Below, one piece after another: positions 9,873 to 57,896 of a stretch of DNA of 64,000 nucleotides; the first letter of the stretch is position 1, and each line of letters starts with the position of its first letter. The notes beneath the pieces are model-generated. The model was not told the origin of the DNA, did not search any database, and saw only the letters and a list, made by a program, of their open reading frames with translations. The stretch is from Pseudocercospora fijiensis CIRAD86 (taxonomy: Eukaryota; Ascomycota; Dothideomycetes; Mycosphaerellales; Mycosphaerellaceae): NCBI RefSeq assembly GCF_000340215.1, contig NW_006921534.1:806001-870000 (forward strand), read 5' to 3'. A program made the position numbers and the translations under genes.

Positions 9873-10223
9873 TGTAGGCGGGACGAGTAGGTCGTAGGTA
9901 GAGGTACATATATAGGGAACTGTATGCTATAGGCCTAGTACTTAGTGTCTCTTAGGTAACTGCGAGGGGTCGGCGTAGCATTGTATACTTCGAAGAGGAG
10001 GCGCTATAAATATTAAAGAGAAGAGAATAGCCGTAGGGAGGGCTATATTATAGCTAGATTAGGTACATTTCCTATATCCTTCTTGCTATATGTGTTGTCG
10101 TAGCTGTGCCTCCTTATATAGTGTATATATATATATAAAGGTAGTTATATCTTCTAGGGTACAAAAGCAAGGAGAGGGGGTATAAGTGTATACACAAGTG
10201 CCAAGCCGGGTTTCCCTACTACA
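9873..10223 (-). repeat. gypsy-1 3' LTR
   Basis: Near-identical to 35,997-36,347, with differences confined to C/T and G/A transitions. It begins TGTAGGCGGGACG and ends CCCTACTACA in plus orientation. The preceding bases in element sense (10,224-10,236) read GGGAGGGAAAA, a polypurine tract, which identifies this copy as the 3' LTR. Confidence 0.85.
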
Positions 10224-10328
10224 TTTTCCCTCCCGGACTAAGAAGTCTGCCCTTAGACTAACGCTTCCTTACCTCCTAGACTAAAAAACCTCAAACACGT
10301 AAAGAAACTAAACTAACTATCCTATAAC

Positions 10329-10356
10329 GGTATCCTAGCTAGCTAGCTGCTATACC
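10329..10356. repeat. ORF-boundary palindrome P1 of gypsy-1
   Basis: Near-palindrome with core CTAGCTAGCTAGC flanked by GGTAT and ATACC. It lies after the extra ORF and about 105 bp before the 3' LTR. The same core recurs at 14,402, 31,787 and 35,455. Confidence 0.7.
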
Positions 10357-14060: not shown

Positions 14061-14401
14061 AGGCGCGAGAAAGATCGCCTTTTTGTCGTAGTAATAGCGC
14101 GGGTACGCGGGAAGGGACGGGAGGCACCTACCTTACGCGTATACGCGCGTTTATATATAAATCCGAAAATAAGGCACGTATCCTAAAGGAAGTAAAGGGT
14201 TAGTAGTAGGTAGCGGCGACATCTCTAGAGGCCTAGGTAATTCGCGTAGTAGCGAGATCCGAGGGCGTAGGACTAGAGTACTTAGATCTAGAGAGTTAGG
14301 TATTATATAACGTACTAACCCCTCCGCTTCAACCCCTACCGTATTAGGGCATAGTTATAAGGGCTCCTCCGGGTAGTATAGGGGTAGTAGTAGTAGTCGC
14401 A

Positions 14402-14430
14402 ATATATCCTAGCTAGCTAGCTACTATAGG
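14402..14430. repeat. ORF-boundary palindrome P2 of gypsy-1
   Basis: Core CCTAGCTAGCTAGCTA with TAT on both sides. It lies between the end of the pol reading (about 14,450) and the start of the extra ORF (about 14,060). Confidence 0.7.
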
Positions 14431-14449: not shown

Positions 14450-16363
14450 TAGAAATCTCGATATATCGGCCGGCGTAGGCTATAGAAATAATACAAAGGA
14501 AAGCTTTTTAAACAAAGGAAATCTTTAAGGTTAGGTAAGGTTTTCCTAGGCTTACTCCGTAGGGTAGGCTTCGGTTTTAGTAAGCTAGGCGCGACGTAGA
14601 GCTTATAGCAGGTCCCCTTTTGCCGAGTTAAAATTATTTACTCGCTCCGCGGGTAGACTAGTACTTAGACTACCCCGGGGAGCAGGTCTAGGGATATTAT
14701 TAAGGATAGGGGCTCCTTACTAAAGCCCCTACCCTCGTCGGTAGTAGTATAAAGGAAAAGAAGCAACGATAGGGCTCTAGTAGTAGTACTCTATCCGGCT
14801 ACTAATATATAAAGGGATAATCGATCCTAGTATACGTCGATAATCCGTTTGAATACGCGAATAAGGGTATTAGCGAGTGAAAAATTCGATATAAGGCGAG
14901 TAAATAGGAGCAAAAGGGAGGCTATACGCGAGTAGTTATAGGTTTATCGGGCCTACTAAGGTAGTAGTAGTCTATTTTCGTTGCATTCTATAGCCTACTC
15001 CGCTTCTAAGGGTTCGTTAAAAGCTCCGGGGTTTGAGCCTAGGCCCTTAGAGTTAGCGGTATAGCGGAGCTCCTCTTGTTCGATCTAGGTAAGCCGAAGC
15101 CTATCTCGTATTTCTATTAAGGATAGCCTACATTCGTTGTCTCCCTAGTTTGCAACGTTGTCTATAGCCTCCTAGGCGAGAAATCTAATGCCTCGCCGCC
15201 TATATAGGTTAGCATATACTAGGGCAGCAAGGCTAGTTTCTACTAGGGCCTTAAGGAGATATAGGTTGTGTTCGAACTTCAATATGTTTATCTCGTCGTA
15301 GACCTAGACTCTCTAGGTCGTCTACTAGCTAGGGTCTCGCTATAGTGCTAGTCGAAATCTAGGGTCCTAGGTAAGCCTCGGAAGAGCGCTAACGTAGTAG
15401 GCTTGTTCGTATAGGTCCTACCTTCTATATAGAATTGCTATCTAGCCGAATCTATAGTATTAAGCTAAAGGCTAGGTTACCCCTCCCTAGGTAAATAGGG
15501 CTAGGTAATTAAAAGCTAGAAAACTATTAGGTTCGGTCGAGCTATTAAAGAAGAGATAGTTATTCGAATAATCCTCTATAAGGGGTACGCTAAGAAGGTC
15601 TCGTATTAGGTTGTTAATCTAAGAGATAGGATTAACTTTAGGGTCGACTCGGTATATAGCTATAGTATAGGCTTAAAAGGCTCGCCTTTGCTCCTCCCTA
15701 GGAAGGGATATAATCGTATAGACGTCTATATCCCTTTCTTTACCGGACTTAGTATTAGACTAGCTATCGTCCCTAGACTCGGAGGACTTAGACTAGCTAT
15801 CTCTATCTGCCTCGACTTCTTTATTAATAGGTTCGTTGTTCGTCGTAGTAGCGTTTTTACCCGAGATCCGGTTAGGCCGGAATAGAGGTACTTCCTTTAG
15901 TCGATCGCGTAGAAAGGTAATAGCTAGATTAGCCCTATTAAGTTCCGTAAGGTAGTACGAGGTCCTAGAGGCAGTAATCCCCGTAATACGAAAGGGGCCC
16001 TTCTAGCGAAAGGCAAGCTTACTAGACCTCGAGTGCTCGATTTCGCTCCTAGTAACAAGTATAAGGGATCTAATCTTAAGGGGAGCGTTAGATACTACTC
16101 CCTTTTCGTCGTACTAGCGAGTATTCTCCTCGCGAGTCCTCTTTAGCCGAAGGGTCGCCTCTTCGTTATCGTTAGGTATATATACTAGTTACTAAGCACG
16201 GTATGCAAGTAACGAGGTAGTGTTACGTATAGTATCCTAGTCGACTTTTTAGAAGGTTCGGTAGGCATTCTCGATAGGAAGGATAACGTCGGCCCCTCTA
16301 TATATAACTTCCGTAGGCGTTTTTCTAGTCGTTCGTCGGTATATCGTTCGGTCGGCCTATAGG
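14450..16363 (-). pseudogene. gypsy-1 pol, C-terminal part (end of integrase)
   Basis: Continues the integrase core broken at 28,702. Minus-strand reading from 16,363 gives RTIYRRTTRKTPTEVIY, which matches the R-x-T-x-R-x-T-G-x-T-P-F-E-L-x-Y block after the catalytic core of Ty3 integrases. Around 15,930-16,010, KLAFRQKGPFRIT matches the C-terminal GPF/Y module that contacts DNA. A non-conserved tail with acidic and Gln-rich stretches continues to about 14,450. Junction residues on either side of gypsy-2 read through in register, supporting a clean insertion with a 4-bp duplication (ATAG). Confidence 0.75.
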
Positions 16364-16367
16364 ATAG

Positions 16368-16647
16368 TAAAGGACGGAAACTAAAACTACTACTACTACT
16401 AGTAGTAATAGTATAGGCTACCGAGGGTAACATAACCTATAGCAATATAGGTAGCTATGTTTAGCATAATAGGATAATAAGACGGTTGCTTAGGCTAATA
16501 ACTAGAGCCCTGCAATATAGGCATTATAGAAGTGTGACATAAACAATGTGCTATACGAGGTTAGTGCCCTATCTACAATATAGAAGGAGGCCTCTTATAT
16601 AGGCTTAAAACTCAGCCTAGGTGTGTAGGGCCGGTTACTAGCTAATA
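16368..16647 (-). repeat. gypsy-2 3' LTR
   Basis: First copy of the 280-bp repeat. In element sense it is preceded by the polypurine tract AAGAAAGGGAGGGAT (16,648-16,662). Confidence 0.88.
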
Positions 16648-16758
16648 TCCCTCCCTTTCTTCGTATCTAACTAGACACGCTTTACATTGTGCGCTCAAAA
16701 CAAACAGTTATATAGTAACCTTAGGCATCTCAGCTAAGGCTATCTTTTAGAGACTCCG

Positions 16759-16784
16759 TAATGACACCCCCGGGGTAGCATTAT
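16759..16784. repeat. ORF-boundary palindrome A of gypsy-2
   Basis: TAATGACACCCCCGGGGTAG followed by CATTAT: a dyad centred on CCCCGGGG. It lies just after the extra ORF and about 110 bp before the 3' LTR. Confidence 0.75.
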
Positions 16785-16846
16785 TCCTAGATTCTATTAA
16801 TATACAAAAACAACTTCCTAAGTATCTAATCTACTACGCTAACTTA

Positions 16847-19603
16847 CTACTGCTTCAATGCACCGTAATCCTTACTAGTAATAACCTTATCTGCTAGTCG
16901 GCTCTCGAAATCTCCTCCGTATACGTTGAAGCTATTAGTACCGAAGTACTGTCCCTCGTAGAAAGCTTAATTAACGAGGAGGTTAACAGCCTTTTCCGTC
17001 GTAGTATTCTCCTAATTGTATAGATATTCCTTAAGTCCCTCGTTATTAAGCTAGAGGATCTATTCAACTTCGTTCTAAACAACGTAACTTAACTAAGGAA
17101 TCCTACTAACTAGAGCGTCGGAGATATAGCCGAGGCCTTCGACTAAGATCGCCGTAGGGAAAGCGAATAGTACGAAGGAGTTAGAGGCCGGGAGGGCGGT
17201 TAGATTGCGGTGCGCTTTAGCAACCTAGGAGACTGTTAAGTTCTCGTAACCCTTAACCTTAGTGCTATTAATAACGCGAGAGTAGCCTAGGTTAATTGAT
17301 ATACGGTTGCTCTCGGTCTTCAGATTACTATATAGTAGGTGCGGCATCTAAATAGAGACCTCGCACTCCTTTAGAGGGTTGAGGATCTACTCCGCCTTAC
17401 GCCCCTTACTATTAGGCTAACTATCGAACATATAGTCGAGGTCGTCGTCGGTAAGGTACTTATTAGTAAGCTTGCCGATCTTGCTTAGTAGGACTAGGCT
17501 ACGAGCCTTGAGCTTCTTAACCTAGTTCGTAAAGACCTCGGGCTAATACATGCCTTCGACAATAGTAGAGTAGCTAGTCTTATCCTCAGATATAAGACAG
17601 ACCTTAATACGTAGGTAACTAGCACCCTCGCTAGCTGCGAGCTTAACTACATCTTGTCCGAGACGAGCAGACTCCTTAGGAGGATAGTTTTCGTAAGTAC
17701 CGCTAACCTTGAAGAACTTAGTAGGCTTAGGGACGGAGATAAGCTCGTATGCGTAATCAGGTCGAAGGGCGATAGCTAAGAGCCACAGGGCAGGGTGCTA
17801 GCGGACGATTTAGTTGCTTACACTATAAGTTTAAAGGGCATTACGGCCTTCTTACTTAGACTTAGGCATGTTACGTATATACTAAAGGTATATCTTAAAC
17901 TCTTCCTACATTAGGTCGATAAGGAAAGGAAGATATACTCTATAAGGCTCTTATAACTAACTAAAGACTTAAGGGAAGATAGCATTACTAGTCTAGCGAA
18001 AGCGATCGAAGGAGGTGCCTTAGCTAAGAATGCCGGTAACGAACTTGCTCTAGCGATCCGTTAGCGTAAGGGCGCGAGTAATAGTACTAGTAGGGTTGAA
18101 CGCGTAGAGTCCTAGAGATGTCGGGGCGGCAATAGGGCGTCTAGGAAACTAGTTAGCATAGGCCTAATTAGCCTTAAGGGCAGCGAAGGCGTCTTAATTA
18201 GGAACCTCGCGACCAATCTTTAATAGGCGACCGACGAGGACACTCGCCTTAGCACTAGTATAGAGACTATAGACCTTAGCGGCCTTCTTAACATAGTTGG
18301 CATATATAGAGAACGGCTCTTCTCCTAGCTTACTAAGGTCGTCGAGCTGTTAACAAATAGAGAGGGCGGTAGAGGCTTCGCCTATTGCGGCTTTAGGAAC
18401 TATATCGATGTCGGTAATAAGGTACGCGATAGAGACGCCCTTATAAGAACCGCAAATGTTCTTAGTTAATAGGATCGGCGAGAGGCCTCTATTTCTACGC
18501 TCGCTAAAGGAGCCTTCGGAGGAGACATCTTCTAGTAGTGCATCTAGCATATTAACATCCGAGTTACTATAGTTAGTACTATAGTTAGTACTATAGTCGG
18601 TACTAGAAGGAGCGCTATATTTCTTAGTAGCCTTACGGAGGGCCTAGCGAGTATGCAATGCCTTCTTACGCGCTACTTCGGCCTTAGCGCGCTCGTCTTA
18701 AACTTCTTAAGGGACCTTGCGGTTACGGGTCGAGCGACGATCCTTAGCCTGCATCTCCGTAGCGAGCGCGAGACTAGTAGCCGTATCGGCCTCCGTTTCT
18801 AGGCGAAGAGCCTTACGTTTAAGAACATTAACGATAGGCGCCTCTTAACCTTTAACAATAAAGCCTGCACTATTAATGCGACAGCCCTTCTCTTTTAGTA
18901 GATCCTTAGTTGTCTGTACGTTGAGATCGACCTAGACAATCGCATCGTAGTGCTTCTTCTAGTAGGCTATCGTAAAGTCGTTAAGCGTAAAGGACAAGTT
19001 AAGCAACTGCTTACCTACCTTCTTACTAGTAGTAGATATACGATAGATTATAGTGCGGGAAAGATGCTCGGCGCCTTAACGACGGACCTTGTACTTATTA
19101 ACGAACGAAGAAACCTGCTTAGTACGCTCTTGTCTACCGTAGGCGAAGTTAATAAGGCTCTTAGGAAGACTACTTAGTCCTCCTTAATGTTCGAAGGCCT
19201 AGTCGAGGGTCTTAAAGCGTAAACGAATCTAGGTACCGGCAGTCTCGAGGCTATAGACGATAGGAAAGGCTTGTTTAATATCTATATCGTTAAGAACCTC
19301 GCGCTTAAAGATACGCTTACCGATAGACTAACGCAAGTTGTTTATACCGTACGTAACTGAGACAGTAGCCTTCTTAATATTCCTATTAATAACGCGTAGT
19401 AGGGTACGAGCGTTCTAGATCTTCTCTTAAGGGTCTTTAAGGGCGGTAACGATCTAGAAGCAGTGCTTAAGGCTGGTTGCAGCAGCTAAGGCGCTATCGG
19501 ATAGGGCTTCGATCGGAACTAGGGCGGCTAGGCTTAGGTTAATAGGGGCAGGTAGGTCGTTGCTGCTACTAGCGCCTAGCGGATTCGGGGCGCCGGAAGA
19601 CAT
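16847..19603 (-). pseudogene. gypsy-2 extra ORF, about 919 codons, unknown function
   Basis: The start codon is at 19,601-19,603 on the minus strand, giving MSSGAPNPLGASSSNDLPA. The reading then stays in one frame with only TAA/TAG interruptions and reaches LADKVITSKDYGALKQ before a TAG at 16,847-16,849. The first part is Ala/Ser/Pro-rich, the middle (about residues 150-300) is Lys/Arg/Glu-rich and probably helical, and the rest looks globular. I see no transmembrane helix, zinc knuckle or DDE core. It lies downstream of integrase where some LTR elements carry an envelope, but nothing in it suggests one. Blocks shared with the extra ORF of gypsy-1 suggest common descent. Function not known. 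Confidence 0.6.
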
Positions 19604-20011
19604 AGTCGACCGAGGCGGTTTAGAAACGAGTTTGCAAAGTGTGTTCGTTGCTTAATAATAATAATTGAAGGGTTTAGATAGAAGGGGGGTTTTAGGCGGT
19701 AGCGAGTTAGTTAGTAACCGAGTAGAAGAAGGAGCTTAGGAAGCTCGCTTTAAATATAGTACGAAGGTAACGTAGTCCGTATGTTCCGCGCTAGTAAAGC
19801 AAACGGATAACGGCTGTATATAAAAGTAAAGCTATATACGAGACTTCTTTGTTATTAGGGTAGGCTGAACTTTAACAATCGATCTAGCCAATTGCTAGTA
19901 GCGACTACGCGCCTTTGTTAACCTTTAGCTATCGTAGATTCTCGCGCACTCGAAATGTAACTAGTTAGTTCGAGTCCTTAGTAGAAATCTATAGTAGTAA
20001 AGCTAGCGGGA

Positions 20012-20038
20012 CTAATAACACCCCCGGGGTAGCATTAG
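20012..20038. repeat. ORF-boundary palindrome B of gypsy-2
   Basis: CTAATAACACCCCCGGGGTA followed by GCATTAG. It lies about 410 bp upstream of the extra ORF start. Confidence 0.75.
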
Positions 20039-20461
20039 CTTCTCTCTAGAGATGCTCGGTAACGAGAAGCAAGTCGCCTAGGCCTAGCGTAGCTAATTCG
20101 TCGGTGTATTAGCCTATAGCACTACCGTTGTAGATATAGCATCACCTTTTATATTAGCAAGCACGTAAGGGTAGTCTGTGCGTTTACCTTCTTCCTTCTT
20201 CTAAACACTAAGCTTAATAGCCTAAGGTCCCTATTCTTAGAGGCTATAGGCCTAGGTTGCTGTATCTATCTAAGAGCTAGGAAGGGAGAGGGATAGGGAA
20301 CCTCCCTTTCTTAGTATCCTACGTAACTAGTGCTAATTAGGGCAGAAACAGTCTCTAGCAGAGTATCTTATTATCGTTGTCACTTGAGGAAGGTTGCTAG
20401 AGTCTAGGAATCTAGAGGGAAGTAGTCCTAGAAGGGTAGAGGGGTTAGGTTCGGCTATCTT

Positions 20462-20490
20462 CCTAATGCTACCCCCGGGGTATTATTAGG
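20462..20490. repeat. ORF-boundary palindrome C of gypsy-2
   Basis: CTAATGCTACCCCCGGGGTA followed by TTATTAGG, inverted relative to A, B and D. It lies about 240 bp after the pol stop codon. Confidence 0.75.
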
Positions 20491-20731
20491 AAAACACGCC
20501 TCGTACAGTTCTATCTAAGGAAAAACAAGAGCAAAGGAATAAAGTTATAGCAACATCTCGAAGGCAAAAGAGCAATATAATAGACAAAGTAAAAGCAAAA
20601 GAGGGCAGCAACTATAAGCATTAACATCCGTAGGAACAAGTAGTAAGGACTAAAGCTATAGGGCGGCACTATATTAACAGCGCGGAGAAGGTAAGGAAAA
20701 CAACGTAGTAGAGGTAGGGAAAGATAAGCAA

Positions 20732-23700
20732 TCATTTAGTCTCGGGATCTAGCTATAATTCTAGGCGGTCTTCGTCGCTAGACTAGTCGAGCTCCTCCTC
20801 GGAGTTAGAGTTAGATAGCTAGAAGTCTAGTTTACTATCGGAATCAACATCGGAAATGCTTTGCGCGTAATTAATACGCACATAACCCTCCCTTTGTTTA
20901 TAAGTTATTCCTAATAGCTTACTAAGATATATCTAGGGATACGTATAGTTGTCGGGCAGAACAGGATCTATAATCGCGGTAGGATCCTCCTCTCGATAGG
21001 CATCCAAGGTCGGTAGAGGGTCTATAGAGGCATTAACTTCCTCTTCGGTCGGGGGAGGGCGGGCAGGCTCTCTCAATTCGACGATCTTTTTTAGGTTGGC
21101 TCGGGGGTGCGAGTGCTTTAAAGTAGCACTATCAAGTTCCTAAAGTCGGTACGTAGAACCATCGTAAAGGACCTCCTATACTCTGTAAGGCCCTTTCTAT
21201 TTAAAGGCTAGCTTATAGGAGTAACTATACTCTAACTCGGACCGGTATAGGAGAACTATATCGCTAACCTTTAGAGGCTCCTAATTAATAGCATTATAGT
21301 TATTAAAATACTGCTTAGCCTCTTTACGGAGGCGCCGTTGTCGAGCAAGACCCTCTTAAGAAGTAGTAGTTATGTCCTTAAGAGCCTTAGCGCGTAGGGC
21401 AAGGAGATCTACTCTAGTACGAATAGACCCCTAGTCGTAAACGCTATGTATGCGATAGGACAACTTAATAGGAAGAACGGCGTCCCTCCTAATTATAAGC
21501 TCTGCTAGCGTAAGTCTAGTCGTATCGATAATAGTAGTTCGATCCGCCTAGAGAAGGGCCGGAACGCGGGTAGAGATAGGAACGGACCTGTCCCCTCTAT
21601 TAGTTATCTTAGATAGGGCATCGATCAAAGACCGATAGCTACGCTTAATAATAGCATTCGACTAGGGATAGTACGGGGAGATGCGAACGTTCTTCGCCCT
21701 ATACGAAACAAGTAGTGCTTAAACTTCTTTAGCTATATTGTTCGTAGCGTTGTCTAAGATAATCTCGTAGGGCGTTCCCTAGCGGTAAAAGAGATCTTTA
21801 AATAGGAAGGTAGCTATATTACGAGCATTAATAGCGCCGCAGCCCTTGTAGAAATGATAGGCTTTAGGCTATTAAGAAAGACCTTCCCGAATAATATAGA
21901 GGCTATTGTTCCGGCTTAGATGAACCCTATTACCGTACTATCGCTTACTAACTAATTAGGCAGTAGGAATACGCAGTTCCCCTAGACGTCGGTAGCTATT
22001 CCTAAAATTGCACTTAGGACAGCTCTTATAGTAGCGGGAGACATTAGCCTATACGCTATCCTACTAGTAGCGCCGACGAAGGACATCGAAGGTGCCCTCC
22101 GCCGCCCGGTAGCCGAGCTTATCGTAAACGGAACGAAGGATCTCTTATCGGGCTGCTAGGTCGTTAATAACACGCTAGAGAGGTGCATTAACTATCGCTT
22201 GTCGCTAAAGGATTCGATCTTTAACTAGGAATCGTCGAGAATAGCGAATAACCCGACGGTATTAACTCTTTAATAGGCTAGGCGCTTTCTTCGTATAGGT
22301 TAGGAAGTAGGCGATGTAATAGGAGTCGTCGGAGTAGACCCTATTAAGGATATTATCCCTCTCTAGTTTATCCGCCTTAGCTTTAATCTAGTCGTTACCG
22401 TTAGTACTAGGGCTCTCGTCGGGCTAGTTACTAGGTTAGTCGCTATGTTGGTCGTTAGTAGCAGGCCTAGTAATCGCTAGTATAGCATTAATATAGAAGG
22501 TAGCGAAGAAGGTACGGTTAATTACTGTATCGACATCCTCTTCTTCTATTATCTCGGCGATGTCCTCTTCTATAGCGGGCCTTCTAGAAAGGCTATCCGG
22601 TCTAGTGTGCTTCTTGCTAGGAACGTAGAAGACGTCGAAGTTAAACAAATAGATCTAGGCAACCTACCGAGCTATCGTAGAGTTTAGTAGGTCGGAGGCT
22701 ATACGGTTAAGCTAATAGACTAGCGTCTAAGCATCGATTTCTAGACGAAAGAACACCCTAAAGAGCTATAGTCGGAACTTCTTAAGAGCCTTATAGACTC
22801 TAAGGCATTCTCGCTTGCTAGTATCGTATCGGGCCTCGATCGGTTTCTATAGTCCGGAGTCGTACCTAATAGGATAACGCAAGGATAGCTCCTTACGGTT
22901 ATACTATATTAGTATCTCGCTATAGCCTTCCCCGCTCGAGTCGATAGCAACAATTATTAAACCCGCACCCTCTAAGTAGTCAATCGATGTTAGTATAGGT
23001 GCGCTAACGAGCGCCTTAGTTACCGTGTCCTTAGCCGCTTAGTAAACGGAGGTCTATTCGAATTCAGCATCCTTCTTAAGTAAGGCGTATAAGGGCTTAT
23101 ACACTAATACAAAGTTCTCGACCTAGATGCGGAAGTAGGAGACTACTCTAAGCTAGGTTCGGACATCCTTCTAACAGGTAGGATCCGGCTAGGACACTAT
23201 CTTTAGGACCCGTACATTATTAGGATAGCGGCCGTTCTTATTAGTTACAAACCCGACAATGTTTATTCGTTTATATAGGAGCTAAAGCTTCTCTCTATAT
23301 ACCGTTAGGTTAGCTCGCTCTAGGTCGTAGAGGACACTATCGAGGTTCTAAATATATTCGAGAAAGAACCTACGGATGCTAGGCTCTACTTCTTTATTGT
23401 CGTACCTAGTTTTAGGGCCCTTAATACCGATATCGTCGAGGAAAGGCATCGCTATATAGGAGATATAGGCCGCGAGGACTTAGTTTATAATGCGAACGAA
23501 CTAAGCTACGGAGTTGGTTGCCCCTTAGGGAAGGGTAGTTTGTCTATATAGCCTAAGAGGTATCTCGAAACTAGTAAGGTCGCGGCTGTTAGGATAGAGA
23601 GGGATCTGGTCGTAGCCTAAGAAAACATCAACTAGTAAGGCTATAATACAGTTAGTAAAAGCTTCCGAGAACCTATTAGTCTCCGGAGGAAGGTTAGCAT

Positions 23701-24440
23701 CTCTAATCGTAACTACGTTAAACTTTTATATAGCGTTAATTAGACGGTACTTCTTTAGTTCCCTAGGAGCTGTTTTCTTTTAAACTAGGAAGTATAGATT
23801 ACGATACGAGGCATAGGAAGGTTCTAAGGTGCTAGCCTTTACACGCTATCGTATTATGTCCTTAACTACACCTCGTAGGCTTAGGTTTAGCTTAAAACCT
23901 AGGTAGGCCTAAGGCTTATATTCGATCGTTCGGATCCTCTACGGAGGGGCAACCTCCGGGTTTATTCTGCCTAGGTAAGTAAAGTTATATACTAATACGG
24001 CCTCGCGATTGTATAGAAGCTCGTATAGCAAATCCAGCTCACGATCCGAAAGCTTAATGCTAGGTTTGATTTTCGCAAGCCTCTCCTCTATTAGCCTTAA
24101 CCCCCTAGGGATAGTAGAGAACTTTTTAGTAATGTATTTCTAATCGTACGGACCATCCCTAGGTAGTAGTGTCGCCTCCCAATTAAGGCACTTTTGTCGC
24201 CAGTTAGGATTTCCGCTAGGATTAGACCTATCGGTAATATGTACGCTACCCTTTACGGGCTTAATCTTGTCGGCTACCCTCTTATATAGGGTATAGATAC
24301 CAATCGATTGTCGAATCCGAGCTCTCTCTCTTTGTCGTTAGGCCTAGAGATTGGCGTAATAAAACAGCGCATAAACTTCCTTAAAAGTCTCCTTAAGTCG
24401 ATAGGTATACAACTAGTAGTCCTAATTTATAACGCCGGCG
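20732..24440 (-). pseudogene. gypsy-2 pol: RT, RNase H and integrase
   Basis: Long minus-strand Ty3 reading. At about 23,440 MPFLDDIGIKG is the RT active-site box. At about 22,590-22,640 FDVFYVPSKKHTRPDSLSRR is the RNase H-integrase linker motif of Ty3 elements. At 21,640-21,800 the integrase core shows EIILDNATNN and later YYPQSNAIIKRSYRSL, where the third acidic catalytic residue is now Lys. KLAFKQKGPYRVQEVLYDGS at about 21,160-21,220 is the GPF/Y module. The reading ends with LELQLDPETK and a TGA at 20,732-20,734. TGA is not a product of RIP on CAA/CAG, so this is probably the true stop. No chromodomain was seen. Confidence 0.8.
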
Positions 24441-24454
24441 AAAACGTTAGATTC

Positions 24455-24481
24455 GTAATAACACCCCCGGGGTAGTATTAG
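24455..24481. repeat. ORF-boundary palindrome D of gypsy-2
   Basis: GTAATAACACCCCCGGGGTA followed by GTATTAG. It lies at the junction between the gag-protease and RT readings. Confidence 0.75.
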
Positions 24482-24489
24482 ACTCGCGC

Positions 24490-27400
24490 TCTAATTAGTT
24501 AGTTCGGGTAGACCCGCGTCCGGTAGTAATGCCTCCGGCGACGATGTATAAGATAGCATTATTACCTTAACTTGTATAGTAGGTATAGGTAGTCGTTGTG
24601 TTATGCTCGCTGTCGCTTCGAGCACTCGTCTTCTTAGTATAGAACCTAGAAACTTGCCTTAACGTACGGAGCGGCGCACTTCTAGAAATAACCTATTTAA
24701 GCTACACTAACTTATAGCGCAGATTGCCGGTCTTACAACCGCGCCGTAGCGTTTCCCGAAGACCGTCTAGAAGCAGCAAGGATATCCTCGTAGGACTTAT
24801 AGCTAGTATTACCGACATAACTAGTAAACACGACTCGGTTGCCCTTCTAGTTAGCGATAGTTCCCTCCTAGGAGCTATCGTCGCAGTTGCGCTAGACACT
24901 ACGAGTTATGCGAGACTATAGCCGACCTAGAATAATTAGCGTGTTTAGGTCGGCGGCAATCTAGAAGGTAAAGGAAAAGCATATGCCGAAAGCGTCTACT
25001 ATAACATTGTAGTAGGCACCTATTAGCGCAACCTCCCTATTTACTCCCTATATACTAAGGGAAATGTCTCTATTTATTAGTAGTCTAAGCTGTTTAGCCT
25101 AGCGCTCACTTATAATAAGTGACTCTAAACTATTATTAAGCATTGCTAGCATCTGTTAACTATAGCTCCCGATAGTAACCTAAATATAGATAGTAGGGAC
25201 GACGGCGAAGGAACGGGTAACTACGGAAAGGTCTACATTATTAGGGATAGAGTAAAGTTCTTTAGGTTAAGGAGGTCCTACTCGACCGATTTATTAGCTA
25301 GTAAACCGGACAGCCTTAATAGAGACTAAAACTAGAGCAGAGTCGGGATTATTACTATCCCCTCGGCCTATCTCCTTAACTCCCTCTTCGTTAGTATTAT
25401 CGATAGTCTCTTAGTTCTCGTAGGTTACCGATTCGCCTTCTGCTAACTCTTAGGCACCTAAAAATTTAGGAAGGAACTATAGGGAAGAGACGTCGATGTA
25501 GTCTTCTCGTCCCTATTTCCTCCGGAGGGTAGCGAGGTCTTTTATAAAGGTAGTATCGTTAAGGATTCGGCTCTAGAATAGGTTAGTAGGCAAACCGTAT
25601 ACTAGCAGCTCTCCTATAGACATATTGGACTTAAGGTCTAGGAACTATAAAGCCTAGAAGAGAGCGTTTGCCTTTGTGTCTAAGGAGTTAGCTAGGCTAG
25701 TACTATACTTTTTCATATACCTATTAAAGCGAAAGCTCTTTAGGTCGGATAACTTCCGTTTATAGGCCGGTAGGTTAGCTGGACCTAGGGTACTACTAAT
25801 GTTAGTAGCAACATCCTCTATATCGACCTCTAGAGTCTCTAGGACTACTAGGCTTTCTATAGGTAGGGTGCTAGGGGCGGTGCTAGGTACGGTACTAGAT
25901 CGGGTAGCGCGGTCTATAGCTGTCTAGAGAGTCTTGGTTTTAGCGGTTAACTCTCGCTATTACTTGGCTTTGTCGGCCGCCTTATTCTTTAGTACCCTAG
26001 TAGGGGCTGCCGTACTAGGGCGAGTAGGGTTCTAAGGGCTCTTGCCCTTGCTTTAGGACTAGGTCTAAGACCGTATAGCAGCGTAGACATCTATACTGTT
26101 CTTAGTAACCGCGTAAACATTGGTAACTACGTCCGGATCCTAAGAAACAAAGTTAACTTTAATAGGCTTAGTAGTTCCGTTACTGCTTCGCTCCTCAACC
26201 TGTTTTGCCCTAACCTTCTAAGTTTCTCGTTTAGCAATAGCGGCGAGGGTACTGTTCCTAGTGTCCTTAAACTCGATCTTGCCGCTATACTTCTTTTCTA
26301 GAAGGGTCTTTAGCTAAGGCAGCTTCGGGGCTCTCCGATCCTATTCGAAATTAATCTTATCGCCGGTGTCTATATAGTGGAATCGGCCATTTACTTGCAT
26401 AATAAGCTTCCTTTTAAGAAGCTCTTTCTAGATAGGGTAGGACGATTAGACATGTTTAAACCCGCTATACATCTAGCACTTGCTATCCAAGTTAGAATAG
26501 ATCTTCCGTATAGCGTAGACATCTACTAAAGGGGCTTTAGGGTAGTTAGGATCTAAAACCTAGTAGACTAGTAGTACATCGCCTAGTGTAGTAGCATTAA
26601 TAACCTCCCTAACTCGCTATAATGCTTTCGCATTTAGGTTTAGCTAGGCTAGGGATTCAGCTAAGTCCGCGACATCCTAAGAGTGCTTAGTAATAGTAGG
26701 AGTTACGGTCTTAGGACCACTTTGCGATTTAGGAAGGAACTTGGGTCCCTTGCTTACTAAGGCTTCTTTCCTAACCTACGCTAGGTTATTCCGGTCTTCG
26801 CCGTAGATGAACTTCCTCGTATCGGCTGCGCTATTAATGTCGGCCTTGATACATACTAGGACCTCTTTATACTTCCTAAAGCTCTTAGGATCGGCCTCGC
26901 TAAGCTTATAGCGACGGAAGATACGCTAAGCTATAGGCTACGGCAACCCCTAGAGGAGCAGCCTTGTTCTCTAAGAGTTTTCGAGATTACTCTGTTCGAT
27001 GCTATCCGCTAACTCGACAAACTCGCGGACATACCCCTTTAGGTCGTTATCCTTAGTGCGCCTTACTAAGTAGAGGGACTCGAGCTACGCACGACTGCCT
27101 TTAATACGACGGCTATCGCGCTCCCGATACTCCCTTATAAAGGCTATCTTGAAGGTCTCCTAGTTAGTATTAGACTTGTCGTCCTTTTCTAGATAGCTAA
27201 CTAGGGTTTTAAGGGTTCGGTAAAGCTTAGAGGAGGTAGTCCTTGTAAAGGACCGAATCTTGTACTAGTCGGATTCTCTATCGAGCTCGTAATTAACTAA
27301 GCCTTCCTTAAAGCGCTTAATATGTACTATAGCGTTCTACCCTTCGAATAGGGGATTTGCCCTACTCCCTAGCTCTAGCGGGCGACGCTTGTTTTAACGG

Positions 27401-27591
27401 AGAAGCTCAGTTTGCTTCTCTATCATTTTTATAAGGACAGTATAGAGCGCCTCTAGCGTAGAGGGCGTAGGAGGCTTACTTATATTAACTAGTCGCCGCC
27501 TAATTTCTTCGTTAATAGGATTAGGGGCGTTTTCGGATTCAGAGGATTCCGCTAATTCTCGATGTTCGTTTTCGCTAGAGCTAGAGCTTAT
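24490..27591 (-). pseudogene. gypsy-2 gag and protease
   Basis: The proposed start is at 27,589-27,591, now ATA, followed by SSSSENEHRELAE. The capsid region at about 27,150-27,400 reads NPLFEGQNAIVHIKRFKEG and then KIRSFTRTTSSKLYRTL, with the helical pattern of Ty3 Gag. At about 25,100-25,250 a retropepsin-like stretch includes MLAMLNNSLESLIISE, corresponding to the LLDSGAE active site with Asp changed to Asn. Palindrome E precedes it and palindrome D follows it. The frame continues to the D palindrome with RIP-type stops. Confidence 0.65.
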
Positions 27592-27740
27592 TCGATTGTT
27601 GTAAAATAGTTGAAATAGCTAAAATAGAATGCTGTATAAAGTTAAAATGGAATGCTATATAAATGTGTTTTTAGTAACTTTGGTCTGTTTAGTTTGTTGT
27701 AATGTTGCTATACGAGAGAGTAGTATATTAGGCTGTTTCT

Positions 27741-27769
27741 CCTAGTATTACCCCCGGGGTAGCATTAGG
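27741..27769. repeat. ORF-boundary palindrome E of gypsy-2
   Basis: CCTAGTATTACCCCCGGGGT followed by AGCATTAGG. It lies about 150 bp upstream of the proposed gag start. Confidence 0.75.
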
Positions 27770-28397
27770 ATTTAGCCTCCTAGGGGTCGCCTAACTACCT
27801 CTAGGAGCTTAGTTTAGTAGATTTTGGATAAAAGCCGCTCGGAGGGAGAGACTACAATCTCTATTCACACCTAGATCCTAGAAACTAGCTCGTATCTCCT
27901 TTAGCTAGGCGGGGGGGCGGTAGCCTTCTTTTTCTAGTAGAAGGCTAAGTACTATCTAAGCGAGGCTGCGAATCTAGGAACGCCCTACCCGATTAATAGG
28001 GGACTCCCCGGCTATCCGACCTGCAATCCGTATTTACTATCAATTAATAGTCTTAGCAAACTAAGCAAGGCCGATAGGTGATTAGTCTATCTCCTCCTTA
28101 GGCGGGGCTTATCTCGAGCAAGCGGTGCTAAATAGGTCTTCGACCCGGAGCCGAGTCCTTAGAAGCTAGCTATAGCTATAGACTAGGCCCTAAGCTGTAA
28201 CAGTCCTAAGGGTTTGTAGCTTTTCGGGGTTAAAGCGATGCCCTCGTTAAGAGGTTTCTCTACTTGTCGTAATAGCCCCTTAAGATACTTCGGTATCGTC
28301 CGTATCGTAGGCTCTTATCGTGCCCTCGCTTTAGTTATAGCTATTCGTGCCTAGAGACTACCTTCAATATACCCGAACTTGTTAGATATAAAGAGAT
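27770..28397. other. gypsy-2 untranslated leader
   Basis: About 630 bp between palindrome E and the primer-binding site. No coding frame or internal repeat was seen. Confidence 0.5.
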
Positions 28398-28416
28398 AGC
28401 CCTACCTTCGGCTCTA
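28398..28416 (-). promoter_or_regulatory. gypsy-2 primer-binding site
   Basis: TAGAGCCGAAGGTAGGGCT in element sense, identical to the gypsy-1 site. Both elements therefore appear to use the same primer tRNA and probably belong to one clade. Confidence 0.65.
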
Positions 28417-28417
28417 A

Positions 28418-28697
28418 TAAAGGACGGAAACCAAAACTACTACTACTACTAGTAGTAATAGTATAGGCTACCGAGGGTAACATAACCTATAGCAATATAG
28501 GTAGCTATATTTAGCATAATAGGATAACAAGACGGTTGCTTAGGCTAATAACTAGAGCCCTGCAACATAGGCATTGTGGAAGTGTAATATAAACAATGTG
28601 CTATACGAGGTTGGTGCCCTATCTACAATGTAGAAGGAGGCCTCTTATATAGGCTCAAAACTCAGCCTAGGTGTGTAGGGCCGGTTACTAGCCAATA
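28418..28697 (-). repeat. gypsy-2 5' LTR
   Basis: Second copy of the 280-bp repeat. The primer-binding site lies one base inside, at 28,398-28,416. After undoing RIP transitions the ends fit TG...CA. Confidence 0.88.
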
Positions 28698-28701
28698 ATA
28701 G

Positions 28702-31330
28702 GTAGGACGTGTTTCCTCTAACTCTTTATAGTGCCGTTCGTTAGTTTAGAAAGGGTAGCTAGGATAGGTCGGTTTCTAACTTCGATTTAACTATTTGCTT
28801 TTAGGTAGTATAGGGAAATCCGTACCCGGTACGTAGCTATTCGCTTAAGCAATTCCTTAGTATCCTTCCGATTCTTAGATCCGTTGTCTATAACGAATTC
28901 ATCCGGATAGCTATATCGGTAATAGACCTCTTCGTATAGGAACTTAGCTATTTGCTATATACTAACCGACTTGCCCGAGTAGTTAAATATCCTCCCCTCT
29001 ACCTAGCCGCTAACAACCTTACGCGCTAAGGCAATAGACCCCTTATTGTCGATATAAAGTATATCGGCAACCTAGCGACGGCTAACAACTCGAATATAGG
29101 TAGGGTAAAGCGTCCTAGCAATCTTGTATCCCTCTCGCATTCGGTATATACGATAGGACCGAACCTATATAGCGATTTAGGACTACATCCTATGCTAGAA
29201 GTACCTTTTCGAGGCTAGATAGTATACTGCCTCCCGGCCCTTATAGCTATAATCCTCGTAAAGTAATTAGATAATTTCCTCCCTAGCCTTTTCGCTATTA
29301 ATTACTCGTTAAAGGGGGCAATTCGGATAACGCTAGTAGAAAAGGAGCCGATCCTTAACAATATACTTCTAGGTAGTACGTCGAACCCTTCGGGCTTCGC
29401 TTCGAGAGATGCCTTACGGAAAGCGAAGGGTCGACTTAAAGTATCCGATAAGAAGCGATTCTCGAGACTAGTATTCGTCCTCGTTAAGGAAGCTAGACTT
29501 AGCTAAGGGATCGATAGGCTTAGTCTATACTATACTATAAAAGAAGTCGTTGTCGATTATATTATCGTCGTCGATTTAGTTATCTCGTTCGACGATGTCT
29601 TCTTTAGTAGGGTTACGACGGGATAGACTATTAGCCGTAGAGTACTTCCGCCCGGGGATATACTTAACTTCGAAGTCGAACAGTCGGATCTAGGCTACCT
29701 AGCGAGCTATTGCCGAGTTAGGGAGGTCCGAGGCGGATTTGTTAAGCTAGTAGACAAGGGTAGTAGTATCGATTTCGATCCGAAAGTACTACCTAACGAG
29801 ATACTTCTTAAACTTCTTTAGTAGTTTAAGTACGGTAAGGCACTCTCGTTTGCTAGTATTATATCGGGCTTTACTTTCGGTCTAAAGACCGCTTTCGTAC
29901 CGAATAGGGTAACGCTTCTTTATATTGTCCCTTTCGCACTAGTTTAGGCTACTACTATACCCGGATCTACTCGCGTCTAATAGAAGGATAATTAACCTAG
30001 TACCCTTAGTATAATCGATCGAGACAAGAGTAGGGGTAATAGTTAGCGCAGCCTTTAAGGTATCTGTAGCGACTTACTAATCCGGTCTCTATAAGAATTC
30101 GATATCGGCCTTTAGGAGGTAGAAGAGTAGTCTTACTATTATTGCGAAGCCCTCGATCTAGATACGGTAGTAGATACAAACCCTAAGGAAGGCCCGTACG
30201 CTAGACTAGTTCTTAGGTACTAGCTATGCGACAATCTTTGCAACTTTCTCTATATTAGGGTGTCTTCCGGAAATATTAACAACGTAGCCGACATATTTCA
30301 GCTTTTTATAGAGGAACTAAGACTTTAGACCTAAAACAGTATACCTAGTACGCTTAATATCTGCAAGAATACTATCTATCTATTAAATGTGCTTAGTAAC
30401 GAATCTTCTTAGGCTAGGTTCGACCTCTTTATTATTATATCGGGTCTTTAGGCCCTTAATACTAATATCGTCGACAAACGGCCTCGTATAGTAGGAAATG
30501 TAGTTAAAAAGGATTCTTGTTACTACTCGGACAAACTAGGCAACGGAGTTTATCGCTCCTTACGGAAGGGTAGTTATTCGTATAAGGCTAAGCGGGGTAT
30601 TAAAGGCAGTTATATCTCGATCGGCCTCGTAAAGCGGGACTTAGTCGTATCTAGAAAAGAAATCGATTAGGAACGAGATAGTATAGTTAGCAAAATCCTC
30701 GGTGAAGCTATTAGTATTAGGAGGAAGGTTTCCGTCCCGTATTGTATAGCGGTTTAGCTCTATAGCAGCGTTAATTAGGCGATATTTCTTAGTTCCTTTC
30801 TTCTAGACTAAGAACTATAGGTTCCGGTATACTCCTTCGCTAACTTTAAGTACCCTATTCGCAATTCGTTCTCGGATTATTTCTTCTATAATGTTTACTA
30901 GGCTAGGCTAGAGGCGGAAGGTTGGTTTTCTCTAGGGTTTATAAGGAATTGTTCGGATCCGTTAGGGAGGTACTATATCCGCGTCGACTCTTCTAATTTC
31001 GGTAAAGCTCTAGGTAAGGGCTTTCTCCCTATTATAAAGCATTTCGTAGAACAGATCTAGCTCCTTAGGAAGAAGTTCTATTCTAATAAGAAGCTTTGCT
31101 TTCCTTTCCTTAGTTAGGCGCGAGCTACGCGGTATATCTAAGAACTTCTTAATTAGGTACTTCTAGTTATATAGCCCGGTTCTAGGCAGAAGCAACGCTT
31201 CTCGAGCAAGCCGTTTCTTTTTCTAGTAAGGGTTACTACCGGTCGTTATACTCCCGGTTATCGTAGTGCTAGCTTCTATAGGTCTTACTTTGTCTGCCTT
31301 TTTCTTATATATACTATAAACTCCGACCGT
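28702..31330 (-). pseudogene. gypsy-1 pol: RT, RNase H and N-terminal integrase
   Basis: Minus-strand Ty3 polyprotein. At about 30,450-30,480, RPFVDDISIKG is the RT active-site box with its two Asp still present. The RNase H segment and the linker motif FDFEVKYIPGRKYSTANSLSRR lie at about 29,640-29,700. The integrase core follows, with DILYIDNKGS around 29,040 and EFVIDNGSKN around 28,890. The reading ends at 28,702, where the gypsy-2 target duplication begins, and resumes at 16,363. This enzyme set makes and inserts the cDNA of the element. Scattered RIP stops inactivate it. Confidence 0.8.
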
Positions 31331-31786
31331 GCGGCTAGTATCCGAATCTTCCTTAAGCATTTTCTTAATAGATAGTAGCTAGGTAGGGAACCTTCGAAAG
31401 CTCTAAAACCTATAGTGCCGCTTATGCTAGTTATAAAACCTATTCGCTTCCGACTACTAAAGGATTGCCGCCTAGTCGTTACGAGTTGTAGGTTCGAGAA
31501 TTGCCTCCGTACGCCCGAGCCGGGTAAGGCTAATCGTCGGGTATAGCTAAGAAGGATCTTCGAGAAAGGACTAGCGTTATATAGCTAGGACCGGTACGTC
31601 GTCGTATACCTGCTCCTAGATAGGGTGCCTAGCTAAGCGGCTTTTATATAGGGTGCTACTAGAGGGCAATTGCGGGGACGCGGGAATGCCGGGGCTAGCG
31701 GGAATACCGGGACAAGCCGGAGCTAGTCTAAGCGAGGTCGGAAAAGGTAGCGGGAGCGGGGGCGGGCCGACTACCGGACTAATTAA

Positions 31787-31816
31787 TATACCCTAGCTAG
31801 CTAGCTAGTATACCCT
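31787..31816. repeat. ORF-boundary palindrome P3 of gypsy-1
   Basis: TATACC-CTAGCTAGCTAGCTAG-TATACC type dyad, nearly perfect over about 28 bp. It lies between the gag-protease and RT readings. Confidence 0.75.
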
Positions 31817-35230: not shown

Positions 35231-35454
35231 ATCTCGTCGGTAGAACAAACAATTTATAGAAGACGATAAACGATTAGAATAAATAGGAAGGATACAGTAT
35301 CGATAAAATTAGATAGGTTGCTAGGTATACTTAAGGTAAGGAGGGAGCGTAGACGGGCTATAGCGTACTTTATAGTACGTATCGCGTCTGTGTCCTCGAA
35401 GTAAGGGGAGGGTAGGCGGTAGTCCGTATATATATAGAATAAAGGGGGCGGCGA

Positions 35455-35483
35455 ATATTACCTAGCTAGCTAGCTAGTATACC
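35455..35483. repeat. ORF-boundary palindrome P4 of gypsy-1
   Basis: Core CCTAGCTAGCTAGCTAG with TATTA and TATA flanks. It lies upstream of gag in the leader of gypsy-1. Confidence 0.7.
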
Positions 35484-35996: not shown

Positions 35997-36347
35997 TGTA
36001 GGCGGGACGAGTAGGTCGTAGGTAGAGGTACATATATAGGGAACTGTATACTATAGGCCTAGTACTTAGTGTCTCTTAGGTAACTGCGAGGGGTCGGCGT
36101 AGTATTATATACTTCGAAGGGGAGGCGCTATAAATATTAAAGAGAAGAGAATAGCCGTAGGGAGGGCTACATTGTAGCTAGATTAGGTACATTTCCTATG
36201 TCCTTCTTGCTGTATATATTGTCGTAGCTATGCCTCCTTGTATAGTGTATATATATGTGTAAAGGTAGTTGTGTCTTCTAGGGTACAAAAGCAAGGAGAG
36301 GGGATACAAGTATATACACAAGTGCTAAGCCGGGTTTCCCTACTACA
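35997..36347 (-). repeat. gypsy-1 5' LTR
   Basis: Second copy of the 351-bp repeat. The primer-binding site lies a few bases inside it at 35,973-35,991, which marks it as the 5' LTR in element sense. Confidence 0.85.
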
Positions 36348-54530: not shown

Positions 54531-55963
54531 GCTATAGACGTAGCTGTAAGAATACGACTATAAGAAGGGTGTATTAGTAGGCAGATAGGGTAGTAGTCGG
54601 TATAAGTAGTATTCGATAAGGATCTAGGAGGAGAGGGAGGAAGGTAGGAGAGTTAGCCTAACGCTAAGCGCTAAGCCCTGCCTAGGGTATTAGGACCCTA
54701 GCTTTACTTGGCCTAGTTACATGCTAATTACGTATAGCCTCTTTAGCCCTAATATACGCTTCCCTTCTAAAGGCCGCGCCCTCGTAGCCTTTCTATATTC
54801 TAATCTCGACCTCTATTACTACTAACTTAGCAAATCTAATAAGCCGCTTAGCCGCGCTAAATTAAACACTTAACTACCTAATTATATAACTATATTAAAC
54901 CTTACCTTCTAACGCTATATTTAACTCTAACTGCGCTATCCTTATATATAATAAAGTAATATATATCTATAAGAATTAAGGGCTATCGACTAATTATAAT
55001 ACGAGCGCGCCTTCCCTACTATAATAGGTAGGCGTACGAGGTATTGTAGTACTGCCTCCGTTCTAAGTAATATCGTTCCGAGTTCTTTGCGTCTACTCTA
55101 AAAGACCTAGAAATGTCCGCTCCGAGAGATTGTTCTTGTTATTACGAGGGCTATTATTGTTCGTAGTTTCGCTAGCCCTAATTAGTTAGGTTTAGTAGCC
55201 TTTAATTATTAATTAATCTTATCTTTTTAAAAATACAGTTCGTCTAGTTTCTATAGATAAAGGCTATTATAAGTGTAATAGTTAAGGTTCGCCTCGCTTA
55301 AAGGGTCGGAAAGATCGAGGAGTAACCTATTATCCGTAAGATCGACCCTAGCTAGCTTAGCTCTATATTTTTGCTCTTAGTTAGTCCCTTAGTTAGTCTA
55401 TTAGTCGCTTAATCTTTTAAGCCTTAAGCCCTTCGAACGACTTCTTTTAACCTAGTTAGTATAGTGCGTTCCGGCCTTAGATACGTAGTATAGGTAAGGT
55501 TGTTCCTATAGATATAGTAATAATAGCAGCGAGTAAGTAATATTTAATAATAGCGGCGCTAGTCGTCTTAGCGCTAACTTTACCTTACTCCTAATTTCCT
55601 TCTTCGACTAGTAACGCTTTAACTAGTAATATACTCCGTAATACTGTTACTAATATAGCCGTACGCCGTCTTCTAATATACCGCCGGCTCGTACTATAGC
55701 GCTAGTATTATTATTACTAGCACTATTCGCCTATACGCGCGCCGCCTCCGCCGACCGCCTAGGCCTTAGGGCCTTAATAGGACGTAGGAATAAGAGGAAG
55801 CGCTAAGAGAAGGGTCTTATAAGGTACGCTAGTAAAGAGGTAGATCCCTTAAAAGAGTAGGCGGTTAGTTAATAGTTATAGCGCGCTCGTTAATACTCGG
55901 TACGCGTTTACTATAGTAGTATAGTCTTATCTTTGCTAACAATTGCTTACCTCTAATTAGTTA
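54531..55963. other. RIP-mutated region, probably the 3' LTR of gypsy-3 plus flank
   Basis: No convincing coding frame on either strand. The right end (from 55,991 leftwards in the sense of gypsy-3) reads TGCTACCCCCGGGGTGCTAT just after the pol stop region, which suits an LTR start. The other end of that LTR was not found. Confidence 0.35.
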
Positions 55964-55991
55964 GCTAATAGCACCCCGGGGGTAGCATTAG
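55964..55991. repeat. CCCCGGGG palindrome F after gypsy-3 pol
   Basis: GCTAATAGCACCCCGGGGGT followed by AGCATTAG, closely like palindromes A-E of gypsy-2. It lies about 40 bp after the end of the chromodomain reading. Confidence 0.7.
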
Positions 55992-56009
55992 TCCTAGGCT
56001 CTAATAGTA

Positions 56010-57094: not shown

Positions 57095-57896
57095 TGTTAT
57101 AAACACACCCTAACTTTTACGCTTCTTATCGATAAGGAAGCCGATATAGTCGTGTCTCTCTTAGTAACTCTTCGTAGAACTGTACGACAACTTGTCTACT
57201 AAATCGTCTACTCGTTCCTACTACGACACTTTGTCGTACCCTATCTAGTTACTACTACGAGTACGAGCGCACCGTGCTACGCGAGACGCGCGACGTATCT
57301 ACCCCGACTTTACGACTTCTACGATTCTTACGATATAACGCCTTCTATATAGCACTTAGGTGTTTAGAGTCTGTACCTCCTTACGATTACGATATACGAG
57401 TTACGAGTACGAGCGTTAGATTACGCTTTTACGAACCTGCGTTAAGCGCCGCAAAGTCTTTACGGTTATACGAGGCCTCGCTAGTATTATAATACAATAA
57501 CTAAACTTAGAAGAGCGCGCTAGCCGCTAGTACTATAGACACCTATTACTTCTATACGTCTTCCTATACGTTCGCAACCGACGTAACACTATCGAGTTTA
57601 CTAAAACCTCTAACCGCCGAGTAGTTAAGGACCCGGCAATCGGATCCGCCGTTAAAGTCTAGACGATCTCCTTCGTAGTCGATTACTATATAATTTCTCC
57701 GTCCCTTAACCCCTTACTAAGCCGCTTAGTAGTTACTTAGTTACTTAGTCCCCTCGTTCCCCTACTAAATCGTTTAGTATAGCACTCGTTCTTCCTTTTC
57801 TTCCCTTTATATAATCTCGTAGATCTTCGGACTTCCGACGTACCTCTAACCTATAGCTATAGCTCGACTCTCCGGCTATAGTAAGCTCTTAAGCGT
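57095..57896 (+). other. gypsy-4 5' LTR and leader
   Basis: About 800 bp before gag, with no believable protein. The small open frames here are chance. The boundary between LTR and leader and the primer-binding site were not identified. Confidence 0.45.

Follow-up and report, generated by a model that had tools for sequence, protein, structure and literature searches.

Why would a giant long terminal repeat (LTR) retrotransposon carry the same short palindrome at its gene boundaries? The question is raised by a 64,000-nucleotide (nt) stretch of the genome of Pseudocercospora fijiensis CIRAD86 (NW_006921534.1, positions 806,001 to 870,000 of the forward strand), referred to here as the window. 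It contains the element gypsy-2 (e2), which is nested in a second element, gypsy-1 (e1), and has three open reading frame (ORF) regions, ORF1 (gag), ORF2 (pol) and an extra ORF3. A 27-bp dyad, CTAATRNYACCCC-N-GGGGTRNYATTAG (a formula that describes the observed variants), occurs in gypsy-2 in five copies, all at gene boundaries. The dyad is repeated at these boundaries, conserved in blocks spaced 6-1-6-1-6-1-6, and shared between families of elements. From the sequence, we tentatively infer a cis-acting site in double-stranded DNA for a dimeric, sequence-specific protein, likely a host factor, with the sites bracketing the ORFs as expression units. The five copies are as follows:

27742 to 27768, minus strand: dyad site 5, before gag
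24455 to 24481, minus strand: dyad site 4, at the gag/pol junction
20463 to 20489, minus strand: dyad site 3, after pol, with its arms in the opposite order to those of the other sites
20012 to 20038, minus strand: dyad site 2, before ORF3
16758 to 16784, minus strand: dyad site 1, after ORF3

A preliminary description of this DNA had reported five dyads of about 27 bp, located before gag, at the gag/pol junction, on both sides of the spacer between pol and ORF3, and after ORF3. This placement is borne out, and the coordinates are reproduced within 1 to 2 bases. The flanks of the five sites are mutually dissimilar. A stricter form of the dyad pattern matches four of the five sites and is found in none of 300 Markov-1 random copies of gypsy-2. 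Across the genome (a single genome of 74 Mb in 30 contigs, with the reversed sequence as control), the exact 27-base pattern occurs at 688 sites compared to 0 in the control, and a 25-base pattern yields 466+453 matches compared to 0+0. Half-sites number 1457+1468 (control, 4+2); 1376 of these 2925 lie within exact dyads, which leaves 1549 others. Genome-wide searches listed the first 100 or so matches as individual places. For 72 of the 100 listed 25-base matches, another match on the same strand lies within 13 kb, and neighbor distances near 0.4, 3.2, 4.0 and 4.4 kb recur among the listed matches, as the gypsy-2 map predicts. No dyad of this type is present in the gypsy-2 LTRs, where the best window in either LTR has 10 mismatches in 27 bases.

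Constraint was scored in DNA with strong marks of repeat-induced point mutation (RIP), as every 4-kb bin of the window is depleted in CA and TG and enriched in TA. In a palindrome, RIP converts the CA of one arm and the TG of the opposite arm to TA. By hitting CA and TG alike, it would keep palindromes palindromic without selection, so that paired C/T and G/A changes should not be counted as compensation. Since RIP in this way mimics compensatory change, constraint in RIP-degraded DNA is to be scored from transversions only. Copies of the same site were aligned together with 80 bases on each side, and transversions alone were counted. Across 33 copies, none of the 132 block columns contains a transversion, compared to 97 of the 1000 columns in the flanks (p = 7e-6). 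The result is the same for the 18 copies whose locus had not been fetched by that very site (0/132 versus 93/959; p 7e-6), a set that includes the window copies and in which 3 of the 18 lie in loci fetched via another dyad of the same element. Because transversions are not made by RIP, the conservation of the blocks reflects an old constraint, and selection on the dyad sites, as anticipated in the preliminary description, is supported.

The dyad is built from four blocks of six bases with one free base between neighboring blocks, CTAATR-N-YACCCC-N-GGGGTR-N-YATTAG. In a table of 33 sites from the window and the fetched loci (a biased sample, in which some sites were retrieved with a pattern specifying most of these letters and the rest by a scan allowing five mismatches), 22 positions (2-6, 8-13, 15-20 and 22-26) are free of transversions, while positions 1, 7, 14, 21 and 27 are variable. 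Changes within the blocks are limited to the C/T and G/A kinds, and the variation at positions 6, 8, 20 and 22 is A/G or C/T, which is of the RIP kind. The free positions vary between site types and families. The bases flanking the free center are C and G, except for C>T in 6/33 sites and G>A in 1/33. Both arm orders are seen, at site 3 of gypsy-2 and in one e3 copy (L044) compared to the other copies of this family, which is introduced below.

Whether the symmetry itself is under selection, as the preliminary description had also proposed, is a separate matter. Across the 33 gypsy-2-type sites, no compensatory change from arm to arm was seen beyond changes of the RIP type, in a test of little power given that RIP itself can create paired changes. 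The free positions 7 and 21 pair in only 1/33 sites. The pair 8-20 is found as T-A, T-G, C-A and C-G, a series that RIP can explain and that, taken alone, would also fit compensation. The preliminary description had named a lack of compensatory change between the arms as refuting its proposal, and within the gypsy-2 dyad type this check speaks against selected symmetry. With block changes confined to C/T and G/A and with 7 and 21 paired once, selection on the symmetry itself is not supported, and the idea that symmetry is selected via compensatory change was dropped. In favor of symmetry, e1 and e2 carry different cores at equivalent places and both are symmetric. The gypsy-1 core is a TAGC repeat, however, and hence symmetric by itself.

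The same observations bear on the possibility that the dyads are an artifact of RIP acting on low-complexity sequence. RIP preserves palindromes, the CCCC-N-GGGG core is nearly devoid of CA and TG and so escapes it, and the TAGC-repeat core of gypsy-1 is self-symmetric. Against this, the controls give 0 sites compared to 688 for the gypsy-2 dyad and 105 for a form of the gypsy-1 dyad, and the conservation test counts transversions, a kind of change that RIP does not produce. An artifact is the least probable of the explanations considered and very improbable overall; it is largely refuted for the gypsy-2 dyad, and the symmetry of the gypsy-1 core is uninformative.

The elements in which these sites lie can be delimited from their repeats and from their homology to each other. 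The parts of gypsy-2 other than the dyads are as follows:

16365 to 28697, minus strand: gypsy-2 (e2), nested in gypsy-1; LTR pair and the 5-bp sequence ATAGG on both sides (16359-16363 and 28698-28702)
28415 to 28697, minus strand: 5' LTR, 283 bp, 95% identical to 16365-16647
16365 to 16647, minus strand: 3' LTR, the other member of the LTR pair
24482 to 27741, minus strand: ORF1 region, gag and (by eye) a protease-like part, broken by stops; identified by the frame with the fewest stops, homology to gypsy-1 ORF1 and transversion phase
20490 to 24454, minus strand: ORF2 region, reverse transcriptase (RT), RNase H and integrase (order by eye), broken by stops; identified by homology to gypsy-1 and third-position transversions
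20039 to 20462, minus strand: spacer of 424 nt, with 10 to 15 stops per ~140 codons in each minus frame
16785 to 20011, minus strand: ORF3 region, with weak homology to gypsy-1 ORF3 (E 7.3e-8)

With two LTRs and a target-site duplication, gypsy-2 is an LTR retrotransposon. Its domain order was read by eye, with a protease-like part at the end of ORF1 and an integrase-like part after RNase H, neither of which gave a model match; RVT_1 matches the piece 23528-23725 weakly (E 0.015; 15.5 bits, below the cut-off of 29.6). The ORF3 pieces gave nothing above the cut-off when compared to Pfam. No open frame was seen in any minus frame of the spacer (20039-20462). Its length between sites 3 and 2 seems variable, as neighbors among the listed 25-base matches lie about 300, 415, 430 or 445 apart. 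The element gypsy-1, bounded by LTR-like repeats at 9873-10172 and 35997-36296, has the same gene plan, with ORF1 (gag and a by-eye protease-like part), ORF2 (RT, RNase H and integrase by eye) and a third ORF. The pol regions of the two elements are homologous across ~610 residues. In phmmer comparisons of translations with X at stops, the homology is clear for ORF1 (E 2e-23) and ORF2 (E 1e-201) and weak for ORF3 (E 7e-8).

Four dyads of a different type, with the core AGCTAGCTAGCT, are present in gypsy-1:

35454 to 35483, minus strand: gypsy-1 dyad before gag
31785 to 31814, minus strand: gypsy-1 dyad at the gag/pol junction
14401 to 14430, minus strand: gypsy-1 dyad before ORF3
10327 to 10356, minus strand: gypsy-1 dyad after ORF3

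In the window, this core occurs at those four places alone, with no separate site behind gypsy-1 pol. The positions had been described as mirroring those of gypsy-2, which is correct for four equivalent places; the sites are four rather than five, and none lies separately behind pol. The statement that the two dyads are unrelated in sequence is right for their cores. Genome-wide, the form flanking ORF3 is found at 105 sites (control, 0) and the gag-side form, with up to 3 mismatches, at 104+97 (control, 0+0). In a relative of gypsy-1, termed e1b (locus L063; 62% identity across a pol piece of 50 residues), the gypsy-1 core is retained at the gag/pol junction; three 251-base slices, positioned according to the gypsy-1 distances, did not reveal the other three sites of e1b. 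Among 351-base slices taken at the expected gag/pol distance in gypsy-1-like families, one (L063) has the gypsy-1 core, two are gypsy-2-like and two have neither kind of dyad.

The gypsy-2 dyad itself extends to a third LTR family, e3 (7.1 kb), of which the window holds one copy, cut to its 3' part (54559-57095), with the following site:

55965 to 55991, minus strand: gypsy-2-type dyad in e3, between the end of pol and the 3' LTR

Two whole copies of e3 measure 7088 bp (L036) and 7153 bp (L043), with LTRs of ~195 bp that are 96% and 94% identical, respectively. Each contains frames for gag and pol. One dyad per copy (at 5692 and 5718, respectively) follows pol, ~1.2 kb short of the 3' LTR. No extra ORF was detected in e3, although this is a weak test in broken DNA. 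The region around the e3 dyad has 1057 first-look candidate places genome-wide, of which 40 were scored, so that about a thousand may match. When L036 was compared to the e1 and e2 pieces tried, no match was found at E 1e-4; the matches of L043 to such pieces stem from a gypsy-2 stretch beside its e3. A further repeat family (L049; 109 first-look candidates, 40 scored) carries a gypsy-2-type dyad, and beyond the dyad only 45 bases at window position 43621 matched the compared DNA. Thus, e1 and e2 are related and have different dyads, whereas e2 and e3 are not close and have the same one, which means that the dyad type does not follow pol kinship. Within gypsy-2, a subfamily (L035, L043 and L045) has another central base in the dyad before gag, with gag pieces 62 to 91% identical among the matches listed. 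A series of dyads at ORF boundaries was not seen in any further family among 20 loci, picked for their differing stop patterns out of 150 scored RT matches; the 150 were drawn from 2414 first-look candidates, and the 20 picks may miss families. A set of dyads of the GGTACC/GGTGCC type at locus L030 was dropped, as at least one of its four members falls ~370 nt past the RT match in a frame that has few stops.

The distribution across families bears directly on the proposal, made in the preliminary description, of an element-specific recognizer, for instance ORF3, that co-evolves with its own palindrome. In favor of this proposal, e1 and e2 are relatives whose ORF3 has diverged and whose cores differ at corresponding positions. 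The expectations of the proposal are not matched by e3, which carries the gypsy-2 dyad without a match of L036 to e1 or e2 at the threshold above and with no ORF seen behind the dyad (again, weak evidence in broken DNA), nor by e1b, which keeps the e1 core at 62% pol identity over 50 residues. As e3, with no extra ORF detected, shares the dyad of gypsy-2 and the closer relative gypsy-1 does not, a co-evolving recognizer is not supported, and we regard it as improbable.

A second possibility is that small mobile palindromes, or cassettes exchanged between elements, settled only in non-coding gaps and left the dyads as relics, whose position would need no function. The dyads do lie in non-coding gaps, in at least three families and with cores that differ by family. 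In fungal mitochondrial DNA, GC-rich palindromes flank genes, such as the PstI palindromes of Neurospora and the GC clusters of yeast, and these are likewise short repeated palindromes that punctuate genes. They are mobile, however, while the gypsy-2 dyads reside in nuclear LTR elements, are conserved well above their flanks and have left no empty sites in view. Among places that had not been fetched by the dyad, it is kept at 8/8 gypsy-2 places (L003, L006, L008, L018, L034, L035, L043 and L045) and at 4/4 e3 places (L036, L040, L043 and L044), so that no empty site was seen at the 12/12 places covered, a small sample. By eye, there is also no direct repeat around the dyads in the flanks viewed. 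An origin as such relics is unlikely, if less so than a co-evolving recognizer.

Could the dyads instead act in RNA, as hairpins that cut, terminate or restart at ORF boundaries, through processing or through TAATG stop-start translation? At site 3, the sequence 20453-20499 forms a strong RNA hairpin compared to shuffled sequences (z -4.76), which is stable because the flanks lengthen the stem. At the other four gypsy-2 sites, folding is no better than that of shuffles (z 0.70, -0.35, -0.07 and -0.88), and the same is true of all four gypsy-1 sites (z 0.34, -0.11, 1.98 and 0.03). With one in five gypsy-2 sites clearly beating its shuffles, an RNA hairpin as the general role of the dyad was dropped. 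An Rfam scan of the window at the gathering score gave 0 matches. Next to the dyad before gag, 8 bases away, lies a second inverted repeat at 27777-27807 (CTCCTAGGGG, an 11-nt loop and CCTCTAGGAG), which by eye pairs perfectly in the subfamily copies L035 and L045; the 87-nt stretch containing both the dyad and this repeat barely folds better than shuffles (z -1.22).

Reading frames provide the other argument for a role in RNA. In retroelements such as SART1, a UAAUG motif couples termination to reinitiation of translation, and the canonical dyad arm contains TAATG. In gypsy-2, the left-arm TAA shares its reading frame with the ORF upstream (sites 4, 3 and 1), and the ATG or ATA shares its own with the ORF downstream (sites 5, 4 and 2). 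These are the expected frames in 6/6 cases, an agreement noticed afterwards and made up of cases that are not all independent. Unlike in UAAUG coupling, the frame that begins at the ATG is closed again within the dyad itself at two of the three start-side sites (5 and 2), the arrangement is not repeated in gypsy-1, and the dyad is also present where no following ORF is seen. At 3/3 start-side sites of gypsy-1, the ATA of the left arm does not share the frame of the ORF downstream, and the TAG repeat places stops in all frames. The in-dyad stop is not a product of RIP either: the ATTAG end outnumbers ATTGG by 318+332 to 0+1 genome-wide (with a pattern that also catches arms of other sites), which indicates that ATTAG is old and not derived from ATTGG, while G survives at position 6 in 9/33 sites and at position 20 in 12/33. 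In the bins immediately preceding sites 4 and 3 (for site 4, ~20 to 170 nt ahead of it), the transversions give no sign of a coding phase, and the pairing of positions 7 and 21 is not kept. The ATG of the dyad was not adopted as a general start, given the in-dyad stops, the age of ATTAG and the different situation in gypsy-1; a start codon inside the dyad could still be in use at site 4. Punctuation of the RNA is the strongest of the alternatives, though we consider it rather unlikely.

Between action in DNA and action in RNA, we counted the conserved C and G beside the center (which an RNA loop would not need), the occurrence of both arm orders and the mostly unremarkable folding for a DNA-level site. 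The reading of the dyad as a protein-binding site would have a dimeric DNA-binding protein, probably the host's, recognize the four blocks. The ORFs of the element are separated by non-coding gaps, and the dyads would delimit each ORF as an expression unit of its own, as internal promoter, terminator or boundary. A host factor appears the most likely partner because otherwise dissimilar families share the dyad. CCGGGG agrees with SYGGRG, the CreA/Mig1-type consensus, which may serve as a lead. It is conceivable, if doubtful, that several unrelated LTR families recruited one host DNA-binding factor and that in the giant elements the site multiplied to every boundary, giving separate transcription units rather than one genomic RNA.

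Several observations weigh against this preferred reading, among them the hairpin at site 3. The free positions, too, are without transversion within one gypsy-2 site type (0/15 columns); in e3, 3/3 such columns have one. The distance from dyad to ORF differs, with 150 nt from site 5 to the start of gag and 408 nt from site 2 to the start of ORF3 (likely starts, by eye), and by eye the pol frame is open directly from site 4. In e3, the dyad lies ~350 to 600 nt past the last stop-free piece of pol, and no stop-free piece of 70 residues follows, so that a promoter role is not obvious there. Furthermore, the shared dyads could stem from recombination between elements. Even so, a site in DNA for a dimeric protein remains our leading, if tentative, explanation, ahead of, in falling order, RNA punctuation, a mobile or cassette relic, a co-evolving recognizer and a RIP artifact. 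To express several genes from a single RNA, LTR retrotransposons normally use frameshifting, read-through or splicing. If true, a dyad resembling a protein site at every gene boundary, common to several families, would be a different solution to multi-gene expression, and the short site could be used to fish for its binding factor.

The closest known kind that we found is the palindromic repeated motif (RM) box of plant Sireviruses (PMC2829016). In these Ty1/copia elements, the RM boxes are symmetric and non-coding, with a mostly CGG-CCG core that varies between elements. Their main location is the LTR, ahead of the promoter, and in some elements they occur 5' of the envelope ORF; a cis-regulatory role has been proposed for them (PMC2829016). 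The gypsy-2 dyad resembles them in being palindromic, repeated and located in non-coding parts of an LTR retrotransposon. Unlike the LTR-based boxes, the 27-bp dyads stand singly at ORF boundaries, with none in the LTRs, and in a RIP-marked fungal genome. Some Sireviruses also have an inverted repeat at the gag/pol boundary, proposed to be a recoding structure (PMC2829016). It shares with the gypsy-2 dyad a symmetric sequence at gag/pol and differs in being one RNA-level site, compared to five dyads that mostly lack a stable hairpin. Among the titles and starts of abstracts listed by searches of the open PMC literature, no description of gene-boundary dyads in Ty3/gypsy elements was found.

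Two further palindromes were observed in these elements. Both gypsy-2 LTRs contain another palindrome (16388-16413 and 28438-28463), TACTACTACTACTAGTAGTAATAGTA, which is trinucleotide-like and unrelated to the dyad. In addition, a gypsy-2-type element (L018:2357; L030:5309-5339) is inserted in the left arm of the palindrome CTAACTAGGTGCCTCGGAGGCACCTTATTAG of a different gypsy family, a single event that may reflect a target preference.

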